Source of the DNA: Candidatus Methanomethylophilus sp. 1R26
GTDB lineage: Archaea > Thermoplasmatota > Thermoplasmata > Methanomassiliicoccales > Methanomethylophilaceae
Length of the DNA stretch: 64,000 bases
NCBI RefSeq assembly: GCF_001481295.1
Contig: NZ_LOPS01000037.1
Span: 1 to 64,000, forward strand
Direction: 5' to 3'
Part shown: positions 6,943 through 45,863 of the stretch, piece by piece
Layout: every line of letters begins with the position of its first letter
How positions within the stretch are numbered: position 1 is the stretch's first letter
Translations under genes and position numbers: made by a program
The notes under the pieces: generated by a model
The model's input: only the letters and a program-made list of their open reading frames with translations
What the model was told of the DNA's origin: nothing
Database searches by the model: none

Positions 6943-7762
6943 TCAATTCTCCTTTTCAACGACCCTGACGCTGTCAGCCTTGACAGTTACAGGTATGGGG
7001 ACCATCGCATCGACAAGCTCCACGGTGATCTCCTCTTTGTTCTCGTCGATCTTCTGGACGCGCGCCTTCTCACCCTTGAACGGGCCGGTGACGAGCTCCA
7101 CCAGATCTCCTTCTTCAATACCGACGACGGCCGATACGGGCACCAGGTAGTGGCTGATCTCCTCGATGGAGGTCTCGCGTCGATGAATGAATATGCTTTC
7201 TTGATGTCGCGGACCTTGACCCTGAGCTGGTCGGTGTTCATGCCCTCGACGAACACGTACCCCCTGAGCCCGATGGGGCTGAGGACGGCGTAGACGTCGC
7301 GCTCCCCCTTGTCGGCCCTGGCCATGAGGGCATCGACGACCTCCTTCTCGTGGTCCATCTGGGTCTTGAGGATCATGATGGACTGCCTGGCGACGGCGGT
7401 GAACAAGGCGGACGCCTCGCCGGCGTCGGAGGCGATGTGCACCTCGACGTGACGGCATCCCCGTACCTCGCTCCCTTGGGGCAGATGATCTCGAGCTTGA
7501 GGATCTTGGCGGTCTTGCCCGGGAAGTCCACGGTCACGGAGTTCTTGGAACGGTAGTTCTCCCAGAGCTCGTTGCCCACAGAGTCGTACAGGGTAACGTT
7601 CCATTCGGGCGCGTCCTCGGCATCGGTCGTCACGCTGAACGACAGCTCGGCCTTGGGAGCGCCGGAAATCGCCTGGAAGTCCCAGTAGACCGTACCGCCG
7701 GCATGGACATCTTTCGATCCCGTCTCGCCGGTGAAGTTGGGGCCGCTGACTTCGTCTGACAT
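6943..7762 (-). CDS. spt5: Transcription elongation factor Spt5 with an extra N-terminal beta-sandwich (two frameshifts)
   Basis: The C-terminal half is archaeal Spt5/NusG. The NGN domain ([20 protein letters not shown] onward) closes the RNA polymerase clamp with Spt4, and the KOW domain contains [15 protein letters not shown]. About 125 residues precede the NGN. They start [19 protein letters not shown] and look like an Ig-like all-beta domain, ending in a TVEVHIAS strand. The extension is joined to NGN only after repairing a missing base near 7452, where GTCACGGTC reads GTCACGTC. A second missing base near 7183 separates NGN from KOW. Repaired length is about 273 residues. It lies between secE and rpl11, as usual in archaea. 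Confidence 0.85.
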
Positions 7763-41187: not shown

Positions 41188-42450
41188 TCAGGAATCGACG
41201 TTGAACTGCGTCTGCTTCCCTTTCCTGAAGGCATTGAAATTGGTGTTATTGAAGATCTCGTCCCTCTCGAGGATGTCCACGATGTTCTCGGAGACCTTCT
41301 CGATCTCCTTGGTCCTGCCCTGACGGCCGAACGATTTGACCCTGGCGGTTATGATGCCGAGCATATCGAGCTCTGAGATGAAATTGGCGACCATCCTCTG
41401 GGTCAGCACGTTGTATCCCATGGCGGAGCTGATCTTGACATAGGTCGAGTAGACGTTCCCGGTGGTGACGCTGCCGCTATCTGATCCGGATTCTGTCTTG
41501 ATGATGCTCATCAGGACCAATTTCGACTGCTCGGTGAGGTTCTTGACCACTTCATAGACAGCATCGAGCTCGAGCTTCTGCCTTGCGTAATCGACATGGG
41601 CGGTGGTCACCTTGAGATCGTCGTTCCTCTCGGCGGCATCGGCGGAGACACGGAGGACGTCGAGGGCCTTCCTCGCATCTCCCGAGGCCTGCGCGGCGAT
41701 GGCGGCGCAGTAAGGTATGACGGCCTCGTCGAGCGCGTCAGGATAGAAAGCGTATTTCGCCCTGTCGCGGAGGATATCGATGAGCTGCTCCGGAGTGTAG
41801 GGGGGGAAGACGATCTTCTCCTCTCCGAGCCTGCTGCGGATCTTCGGAGTTAGCATCTTCTCGGCGAACATCGAGTTGTTGGTGATGCCGATGATCGATA
41901 CCCTCGATTTCTTCAGCATCTCGTTGATCGTCGTCAGGTAGTAGAAGATGTCGTCGCCGTTCTTCCTGAACGACATATCGATCTCGTCGAGGACGATGAG
42001 GAAGATCTTGTCCTCTTCGTCGATGTAGACGGAGAGCTCGTTGAATATCTTCTCGAGCGACCATCCGGTGAACGGGATCTTCCTGTTCGGGTCGGTGATG
42101 ATCTGGTTGGCGATGTTGTAGAGTATGGAGTAGGGAGTGTCGACGACTTCGCAGTTGACATAGATGCTCCTGCAGTTGTTCCCCTTGTCCGCTTTCTCCA
42201 GTTCTTTGCCGATATATTTCACGACCGCAGTTTTCCCGGTCCCGGTCTGGCCGATGATGAGGATGTTCGAAGGTTTGTTCCTGCCGAGCGAAGGTGCGAT
42301 GATGTCGACGATCTCTCCGATCTCATTATCCCTGTGGAGAAGCTGGTCCGGAAGATACTCTTTGTCGAGGATCTTCCTGTCCTTGATCAGCCTGTTCTTC
42401 TTCTCAAGATACTTTTTGAAAAGCGAATCTGCCGTCACTCGAAAATCCAC
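41188..42450 (-). CDS. cdc6: Replication initiator Orc1/Cdc6
   Basis: Orc1/Cdc6 binds ORB elements, opens the origin and loads MCM. The 420-residue protein has Walker A IIGQTGTGKTAVVKYIG (about 64-80), Walker B IFLIVLDEIDM, sensor 1 SIIGITNNSMF, and a C-terminal winged helix (about 320-420). The ORF starts with GTG 42450; a second GTG at 42438 is possible. A TTTCCCGTGGAA dyad lies directly upstream. Inverted ORBs stand on both sides of the gene. Confidence 0.96.
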   Translation of the reverse strand: MDFRVTADSLFKKYLEKKNRLIKDRKILDKEYLPDQLLHRDNEIGEIVDIIAPSLGRNKPSNILIIGQTGTGKTAVVKYIGKELEKADKGNNCRSIYVNCEVVDTPYSILYNIANQIITDPNRKIPFTGWSLEKIFNELSVYIDEEDKIFLIVLDEIDMSFRKNGDDIFYYLTTINEMLKKSRVSIIGITNNSMFAEKMLTPKIRSRLGEEKIVFPPYTPEQLIDILRDRAKYAFYPDALDEAVIPYCAAIAAQASGDARKALDVLRVSADAAERNDDLKVTTAHVDYARQKLELDAVYEVVKNLTEQSKLVLMSIIKTESGSDSGSVTTGNVYSTYVKISSAMGYNVLTQRMVANFISELDMLGIITARVKSFGRQGRTKEIEKVSENIVDILERDEIFNNTNFNAFRKGKQTQFNVDS

Positions 42451-42452
42451 CC

Positions 42453-42464
42453 TTTCCCGTGGAA
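42453..42464. promoter_or_regulatory. Possible mini-ORB at the orc1 start
   Basis: TTTCCCGTGGAA differs by one base from the dyad of the full ORBs but lacks the G-string. It may allow Orc1 to act on its own promoter. Confidence 0.35.
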
Positions 42465-42595
42465 CCCTTTACTTCGGGTCGAAGATATAAGGATTGTTTT
42501 TCCCAACCGCCGGCAGGTTATTTTCGCCGTTCCTTCAGATGAACGATTTTATAATGGGAAGGGTATAATCGCCCGTCTGACAGGAGACTTCCAAA

Positions 42596-42682
42596 ATGAA
42601 AGGCTACCTCACCATCGTCGGCTGCATCGCGGCCGTCTGCGTCGCCATCGTCTGCTTCTGGGCGATCGGCGAGTTCATGTGA
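42596..42682 (+). CDS. 28-aa membrane peptide inside the origin region
   Basis: ATG 42596 has CAGGAGA six bases upstream and TATA-like ATTTTATAATGG about 50 bases upstream. The product is one hydrophobic helix (YLTIVGCIAAVCVAIVCFWA) with a short polar end, stop TGA. It lies between orc1 and ORB3. Its size makes it uncertain. The following 42683-42843 is pyrimidine-rich with no gene seen. Confidence 0.45.
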   Translation: MKGYLTIVGCIAAVCVAIVCFWAIGEFM

Positions 42683-42843
42683 AACAATTTCATCTGACGC
42701 GCGGCCGTACGCCGGCGTCCTTTCTCTCTTTCGGCTTTTCAGCCGTTCGGCTGACAGCTTTTCATCATCGATCTTCATCATCATCGCTCGGGCAGGCATT
42801 CCGCCGCCTGTTTTCGCAGTTCCGCAGAGGCTGTTTTTTCACA

Positions 42844-42888
42844 CCCATATCCTTTTTCAGTTTCCAGTGGAAATGAAGGGGTGGGGGT
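42844..42888 (+). repeat. Origin recognition box ORB3
   Basis: TTTCCAGTGGAAATGAAGGG plus G-string (42861-42886) on the plus strand. The 45-bp stretch is the exact inverted copy of 41109-41153. The two boxes point away from each other across orc1. Confidence 0.85.
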
Positions 42889-42944
42889 GTTCCGCTGCAT
42901 GCAGCATGCTGCTCTCAAGAACCCCTGCCGATTATCTGCTATAG

Positions 42945-43282: not shown

Positions 43283-44623
43283 ATGTTCGTAGCTGCGGAC
43301 GATACCGATTCGATGAGGGGCAACTGCACCACATATCTCGCGACCGAGATCATCCGCGTACTGGTCTACGAAGATGGGCTGGACCTCATCGGCTACCCGA
43401 GGCTGGTCCGCCTCAACCCGGCCATCCCTTGGAAGACCCGCGGCAACGGCGCCCTCGTCATGCGTTTCGGGAAAGGGACCGGGAAGTAGACGTTCATCGG
43501 GAACATCGAAGGCAGGGAGCTTTATTGCTGTGAGTCCCAGACGGAATGGGAGCCGGACCCTGAGGCCCTCGCCGGACGCATCCGTCCCATAGTGGAGGAA
43601 TACCACGATCCGGTCGATTCCGATCCGGGGATCGTCATAAGCCGCGTCTGCCCGGACCCGTCCTTCTACCGGCGGGGCGTGACCCGCGTCATGAAGCGCT
43701 CCGATATCGAAGCGGAGATAGAGCGCATCGGCGCCGCGAAGATCGAGCTCGGCTGCGGGCGCGGGATCATAGGGTGCGTCTGCGGCATGGCCTGGGTCCC
43801 TGAGGACCACACCTACGAGCTCCTGTCGTACCGTCCCCGTTCCAGGTGGGGGACGGAGAGGATCTTCGATCCCTCCACCGTGGCGCGCGCGGAGCATGAG
43901 ATCCCAACCTCCTTCAACAGCTGGGACGACCGTCTGGCACAGTGCGCAATGGTCCCCGGGACCCCCTGCCCGGTCATGTACGGATTCCGCGGCGACGTGC
44001 CGGAGGACCTCATCCGCGGGCATGATATCATCAAGACCGAGCCTCAGAGCAGATGGGTCATATTCGAGAGCAACCAGGGCACGGACGACCATATCATCCG
44101 CAGTTTCACGCCGGAGGAGTTCATCCCGAACAGCTCCTACCTCATCCGCGGGACGGTCGTGTCCGAGCAGAGGATCCGCGGCGGCCACACCTTCCTCTCA
44201 ATCGATACCGAATGCGGGAGGGTGGTCTGTGCGGCCTACGAGCCCTCCGGTCCTTTCCGCTATCTCCTCGACTGGCTCGACCCGGGGGACACCGTGGAGG
44301 TCATGGGGGAGCTCAGGGACAGCCCGAGGACCCTGAACCTCGAGAAGGTGCATGTGATCTCCCTCGTGGATGAATGGGAGAAGGTCTCCAACCCCGTATG
44401 CCCGAACTGCGGAACCACGATGTCGTCCGCCGGCAGGGGCAAAGGCTACCGCTGCCGCAAATGCGGGGCCCAGGCGGCGCAGGCCGTCATGAGGAGGAAG
44501 GCCCGCCCGGTGGTCTCGGGATGGTACGAGCCCCCCACGGAGGCCCGCAGGCATCTTTCCAAGCCCCTCAAGCGCATGGGAGAGGTACAGCCCGTGGAAT
44601 TCGTCGATTGCCGTAATCACTGA
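43283..44623 (+). CDS. tiaS: tRNA(Ile2) 2-agmatinylcytidine synthetase TiaS with in-frame TAG
   Basis: TiaS attaches agmatine to C34 of tRNA(Ile2) so that AUA is read. The start FVAADDTDSMRGNCTTYLAT and IPWKTRGNGALVM are family motifs. The catalytic region (GCGRGIIGCVCGMAW), OB fold (YLIRGTVVSEQRIRGGHTFL) and C-terminal zinc ribbon (CPNCGTTMSSAGRGKGYRCR then KCG) follow, with the closing ARRHLSKPL. Codon 69 (43487-43489) is TAG and the frame continues unchanged to TGA 44621. TiaS is essential, so readthrough as pyrrolysine is the leading explanation. A base error is the alternative. Full length is 446 residues. Confidence 0.9.
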
Positions 44624-44685: not shown

Positions 44686-45863
44686 ATGGATGAAGCAGTA
44701 ATCATAAGCGCATGCAGGACCGCAGTCGGAAAGTACGGCAAGACGCTCAGCGGGATCAAAGCGACCGATCTCGGGGCCCATTGCGTGAAAGAGGCCGTCA
44801 GGAGGGCCGGTATCGAGGCCTCCGACGTCCAGGAATGCATAATGGGGAACGTCCTGTCCGCAGGTCTGGGACAGAACCCCGCGAGGCAGGCCGCCGTCGC
44901 GCCGGGCTCCCTGTGGAGATCGGGTCGTTCACCGTCAACGCCGTCTGCGGATCGGCCCTCAAGGCCGTGATGCTCGCCGCCGATGCCATCAAAGCAGGCG
45001 AGTACGAGTGCATCGCGGCAGGCGGCATGGAGAGCATGTCCAATGCCCCGTACCTGCTCACCGGCGCCCGCTGGGGATACAGGATGAACGACCAGACCGT
45101 CGTCGACTCGATGGTCCACGACGGGCTCTGGGACATCTTCAACAACCAGCACATGGGATTCACCGGCGAGATCGTCGCCGAGAGGTTCAACGTCACCAGG
45201 GAGGATGCCGACCAGCTCTCCGTCGACAGCCACAGGAAGGCCCATGAGGCGCAGGTCTCCGGGAAGTTCGACAAGGAGATCGTCCCCTTCACCATCCACA
45301 GCAAGAAAGGGGACATCGTGTTCGACAAGGACGAGGGCATCAGGCCCGACTCCACCCTCGAGTCCCTCGGGAAGCTCAAGCCCGTGTTCAAGAAGGACGG
45401 CATCGTGACCGCGGGGAACTCCTCGCAGCTCTCCGACGGCGGGTCCGCCGTCATCGTCGCCTCCAGGAAATGGGCGGAGGAGCACGGTATCAAGCCGATG
45501 GCCTCCATCGTCGCCTACGGCGAGAGGGGAGTCCTCCCCGAGAGGATCATGGAGGCCCCCATACCGACGACCCAGTACGTCCTGAAGAAGGCCGGCATGA
45601 CCATCGACGACATCGGGCTCTTCGAGCACAACGAGGCCTTCGCGTCCGCTTCCTGCGCCGTGAAGAAGACCCTCAACGTGCCGGACGAGATCTTCAACGT
45701 CAACGGCGGCGCCGTGGCCCTCGGCCACCCCATCGGGTGCTCCGGGACCAGGGTGCTGACCACCCTGCTCTACGCCATGCAGGACAGGCAGAAGGACACC
45801 GGCCTCGCCACCCTCTGCTACGGCGGCGGCAACGCTGTATCCATGATCGTCCGCAGGGAGTGA
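44686..45863 (+). CDS. Thiolase (acetyl-CoA acetyltransferase family; one frameshift)
   Basis: The enzyme joins two acyl-CoA, or cleaves the product; in archaea acetoacetyl-CoA formation starts the mevalonate route. Active-site residues are Cys in [11 protein letters not shown], His in [10 protein letters not shown], and the HPIGCSGTR loop. [20 protein letters not shown] opens the protein. One missing G near 44905 breaks the frame before [14 protein letters not shown]. Repaired length is about 392 residues. Neighbours are not in the mevalonate pathway, so the physiological direction is unclear. Confidence 0.9.

Follow-up and report, generated by a model that had tools for sequence, protein, structure and literature searches.

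A putative pyrrolysine codon in the tRNA-modifying enzyme gene tiaS of a Candidatus Methanomethylophilus species

Amber codons read as pyrrolysine

Pyrrolysine, the 22nd amino acid, is conserved and catalytic in the methyltransferases MtmB, MtbB and MttB. The gene examined here, tiaS, is like the genes for these proteins in having a UAG codon and in the pylTSBCD system that would serve it, and the methyltransferases themselves are present in the same genome with TAG. They differ in that the TiaS site is variable and its TAG is confined to one species. A 2025 paper in Science reportedly describes archaea in which all TAG codons are read as pyrrolysine.

By analogy, the closest match to the tiaS case appears to be the tRNA-His guanylyltransferase (Thg1) of Methanosarcina acetivorans, for which the relevant passage of a published article records an in-frame amber codon (PMC2933860, citing Heinemann et al. 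2009). As related in that passage, pyrrolysine was physically observed in Thg1, whose activity did not depend on it (PMC2933860). On this account, Thg1 and TiaS are both tRNA-processing enzymes of a Pyl-decoding host, each with TAG in one species only and a sense codon in relatives, and a neutral replacement has been proposed for both. They differ in that pyrrolysine was seen in Thg1 and is deduced for TiaS from sequence, and in that TiaS acts on tRNA(Ile2) for AUA decoding.

Amber codons outside the methyltransferases have also been described within the order to which the present species belongs. For 'Candidatus Methanomethylophilus alvus', 16 Pyl proteins were predicted in addition to the methyltransferases, and TAG makes up 1.6% of stops (PMC4153887). 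Codons of this kind were suggested to couple growth to the capacity for Pyl and possibly to make Pyl decoding essential (PMC4153887). Excerpts of the ISO4-H5 genome paper give 46 amber-containing genes for that strain (PMC5011839). As far as these sources describe them, both organisms resemble the species studied here in having TAG in scattered housekeeping genes whose homologues lack it, and M. alvus resembles it further in seldom using TAG as a stop. TiaS is absent from the published M. alvus table (PMC4153887) and is not among the genes named in the ISO4-H5 excerpts (PMC5011839). A full-text literature search for TiaS with pyrrolysine yielded only a general tRNA review, judged by its title and abstract.

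The tiaS gene and its codon 69

TiaS modifies tRNA(Ile2) and thereby enables the decoding of AUA. In the window (the whole stretch of DNA analysed, 64,000 nucleotides of G000, the metagenome-assembled genome of a gut-type methanogen of the Methanomassiliicoccales), the gene for this tRNA(Ile2) 2-agmatinylcytidine synthetase occupies 43283..44623 on the + strand and comprises 446 codons. A single frame runs from ATG at 43283 to TGA at 44621-44623, with TAG at 43487-43489 (+ strand, codon 69) as the sole internal stop. Neither G000 nor G101, a second genome of the species that is complete on a single contig, contained a second internal stop or a frameshift in the gene, and each genome gave a single TiaS match.

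When TAG was read through, the product contained all four TiaS domains in order, each above the Pfam cut-off. Codon 69 lies within the TiaS_TCKD domain (residues 2-158, 43286..43756), and downstream of it follow the TiaS_FLD domain (residues 159-270, 43757..44092), the OB-fold domain (residues 287-351, 44141..44335) and the C-terminal zinc ribbon (residues 370-408, 44390..44506), all on the + strand. An initial annotation made from the letters of the window had described an identical frame on both sides of TAG and an otherwise complete TiaS, and the frame and the four domains bear this out. The match to the NCBIfam TiaS model NF040849 was below the cut-off (275.9 bits against 600), which is a curated score and not a functional feature. 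Whole-length identity of the read-through protein to its nearest relatives was 56-72%. Its AlphaFold model had a mean pLDDT of 88, and the best fold matches were the TiaS crystal structures 4rvz, 5xob and 3amt.

In the model, the TCKD domain has a predicted beta strand at residues 65-75 (pLDDT about 97), which includes codon 69 between invariant glycines. TiaS might also be produced as two chains, residues 1-68 and a C-terminal part started internally, and a GTG-started frame of 343 codons (43592-44623) could supply the second. This start omits residues 69-103 of TCKD, however, and would leave a gap in a strand-rich and confidently predicted region, which makes a two-chain enzyme extremely improbable. 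RNA folding downstream of TAG revealed nothing beyond chance (z -0.31), and an Rfam search for a downstream signal gave no match. This counts against the pyrrolysine reading, although downstream RNA structure is not required for pyrrolysine readthrough according to published work (PMC9499178).

We compared codon 69 among TiaS proteins of related genomes, an alignment that had been proposed along with the first description of the TAG. All 29 near relatives had sense codons there, mostly for Lys (19) or Arg (7), with Gln, Ser and Asp once each, and six more distant relatives had Gly, Pro, Ser or Cys. This variety of residues indicates that the site tolerates change. TiaS was matched in 129 genomes of the order, and among these an internal TAG was confirmed in G000 and G101 only. 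Stops were also counted in the TiaS of some distant relatives, and in the six checked the stops were not internal. Three genomes to which these counts had drawn attention (G030, G094 and G062) had no TAG inside the aligned protein, and the stops counted there were apparently terminal. The conservation of TAG among orthologues that is expected of a functional Pyl, as in MtmB, was not seen for TiaS. A variable site with TAG in only two genomes of one species points to a recent one-base change rather than to a conserved role of Pyl.

TiaS matches were lacking in 6 of the 14 same-genus genomes searched, all six of them less than 90% complete. This is more than incompleteness alone suggests, and the region may be one that assembles badly. 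As a separate observation, tiaS lies close to a gene for an Orc1/Cdc6-like ATPase (41188-42450, - strand, identified by eye), with an intergenic stretch at 42450-42940 nearby. The chromosome records of two complete relatives (G011 and G012) begin or end no more than about 2 kb from tiaS. The Orc1/Cdc6-like neighbour and this position in the two records suggest that a replication origin is near.

Authenticity of the TAG in an error-rich assembly

Errors were surveyed over about 992 kb of the G000 assembly, using 593 placements of G011 genes. The survey gave 186 frameshift joins, equivalent to 0.34 per aligned kb, and single lost bases accounted for 105 of the 147 that could be resolved. Within the window, frameshifts in conserved genes were found at 7175, 7450, 20792, 23212, 23934, 28318, 39015, 44898, 50135, 54040 and 63915, among others. 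The one near 44898 is the loss of a single G from the thiolase gene adjoining tiaS. Because this deletion is absent from G101, the many frameshifts of the window look like assembly errors.

Five clean in-frame stops were present in the true frames of the survey, all of them TAG, and no clean TAA or TGA was found there. Raw TAA and TGA matches were mostly alignments continued past a frameshift or wrong-frame query ORFs, as judged by eye. Under the GC-rich codon usage, TAG would be the outcome of about two thirds of random nonsense changes, and a set composed of TAG alone therefore says little by itself. Enrichment of TAG over TAA and TGA, with p only 0.12-0.15, did not serve as main evidence.

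Besides tiaS, the five stops were located in the genes for ribosomal protein S2 (rpS2; G000:C17:7235), ArgRS (G000:C9:41122), an ABC ATPase (G000:C1:58300) and PylC (L045:11315-11317), where G101 reads CAG, TCG, TGG and GAG, respectively. The TAGs of rpS2 and ArgRS are probably errors, since G101 differs at these codons within otherwise nearly identical sequence. Taken as a group, the four are probably errors or strain-private changes and are not to be trusted. A Pyl codon inside pylC would make the synthesis of Pyl itself need Pyl.

Given this error rate, the tiaS TAG could likewise be a wrong base in place of AAG or CAG, as the sense codons of G101 at the other four positions and the predominance of TAG among random nonsense changes would allow. 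G101 was decisive. A sense codon at this position and a lack of pyl genes had been named beforehand as refuting the pyrrolysine reading, and neither was observed. Its tiaS is about 98% identical in DNA to that of G000 and keeps TAG at codon 69, with identical flanking codons. A separate complete genome that differs by about 2% in DNA, yet has the same TAG and flanks and is free of the neighbouring deletion, leaves a base error with almost no probability. The presence of TAG in G101, without the thiolase deletion, also upholds the earlier view that a lost base does not explain this codon, unlike the frameshifts of the window. By this comparison of sequences, we regard the tiaS TAG as confirmed to be genuine and, as far as two genomes can show, species-wide. 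For error-rich metagenome assemblies, a practical rule would be to trust an in-frame TAG only when it recurs in another genome of the species.

Pyrrolysine machinery and the reading of TAG

The presence of pylT and pylS in the same genome had been named as a check on the pyrrolysine reading. Both were found, together with pylB, pylC, pylD and mtmB genes that carry TAG. The pylT gene (L045 9979-10049) has a CTA anticodon, lies directly upstream of pylS and is identical in G101. An ARAGORN scan did not report it, and it was recognised by eye beside pylS. In addition to pylS, pylD and pylB, G000 encodes a full-length pylC frame, which has the TAG mentioned above in G000 and none in G101. In G101, pylT, pylS, pylC, pylD and the TAG-bearing tiaS are all on one contig. 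TAG is also found inside mttB, mtbB and two mtmB genes of G000, and its position in each agrees with that in G011.

The arrangement of the pyl genes had two further features. In G000, pylB (G000:C31:2426-3433) is on a separate contig from pylT-pylS-pylC-pylD (L045:9979-12981), and G011 likewise has no room for pylB between pylS and pylC. The start of pylC (L045:10985-11012) is apparently without ATG, GTG or TTG, and a stretch conserved in G000 and G011, AGTAGACTGA(A/G)ACTAGG, suggests a CTG start.

Stops at conserved gene ends in G000 were overwhelmingly TGA (398 of 419), with 20 TAA and about 1 TAG, so that the near-absence of TAG stops noted in the window holds for conserved genes of the genome as well. 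Apparent TAG ends numbered 7 of 425. They consisted of four Pyl methyltransferases, one PHP gene, one alignment artefact and one seemingly true stop, and from this breakdown TAG in G000 appears to serve as a sense codon no less often than as a stop.

TAG can be a stop even in organisms that use Pyl, and one true terminator of this kind is present here. If codon 69 were such a stop, tiaS would be a pseudogene or would encode a truncated protein of 68 residues, and AUA would be decoded by other means. However, the gene is single copy with complete domains, and neither strain has any further internal stop or frameshift. Downstream of TAG, 16 synonymous and 7 nonsynonymous differences separate G000 from G101 (pN/pS 0.13, Fisher p 2e-6). 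This ratio reflects strong purifying selection between the two strains on the coding sequence after TAG, and it implies that the downstream part is translated and needed. Furthermore, ATA accounts for 16% of Ile codons (1908/11944, aligned genes of G000), so a working route of AUA decoding is expected to matter. Against these observations, termination at codon 69 is highly improbable.

Another tRNA, near-cognate or suppressor, might instead read through TAG and insert one of the standard amino acids (Gln, Lys or Tyr, for example), and the usual residues at codon 69 (Lys, Arg and Gln) would fit such a substitution. The genome, however, encodes a dedicated tRNA(CUA), its synthetase and the full pyrrolysine pathway, and a scan of stretches that covered a little over half of the genome revealed no further tRNA(CUA) gene. 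We therefore consider insertion of a standard residue very unlikely.

The reading we favour, with a probability of roughly 86%, is that the UAG at codon 69 of tiaS is a genuine sense codon and is read by Pyl-tRNA(CUA), giving full-length TiaS with a near-neutral replacement. The pyl genes and the retention of TAG in G101 support the pyrrolysine assignment of the initial annotation. Pyrrolysine would be made by PylBCD and then charged onto tRNA(CUA) by PylS. Pyl-tRNA(CUA) would read codon 69, and translation would go on to the UGA at 44621. The resulting TiaS would be full length, with pyrrolysine at a TCKD position that varies among relatives. A single base change in AAG (Lys) or CAG (Gln) is the most likely source of the TAG, and it would have been close to neutral and specific to this species. 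We propose that TAG is tolerated at codon 69 because it seldom ends genes here and its suppression is efficient. We infer from these comparisons that pyrrolysine is the residue inserted, and likewise that it is inserted efficiently and as a neutral replacement. That the TiaS TAG is one more case of a known phenomenon is well supported.

If only tRNAPyl reads TAG, AUA decoding would hinge on the supply of pyrrolysine, and it is reasonable to hypothesise that methylamine physiology is linked to AUA decoding. It is unlikely that Pyl at residue 69 acts as a real control coupling methylamine physiology to translation, as opposed to being a neutral accident. The case places a UAG sense codon, found in two genomes of one species, inside an enzyme that supports translation and has only one gene copy. 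Provided that full-length TiaS is needed, a loss of pyrrolysine synthesis would harm AUA decoding in this species. The dependence on an expanded genetic code that has been proposed (PMC4153887) is thereby made directly testable.

The PHP gene among the apparent TAG ends encodes a phosphoesterase-like protein with a PHP domain. An in-frame TAG was present in its copies in G000 (L210; G000:C42, about 45319), in G101 (L204) and in G011 (L218), which is another species. The protein is conserved downstream of TAG, and other relatives have Met, Leu, Phe, His, Trp or Ala at this position. The PHP-domain gene is a candidate for encoding a Pyl protein, more widely shared than the TiaS case.
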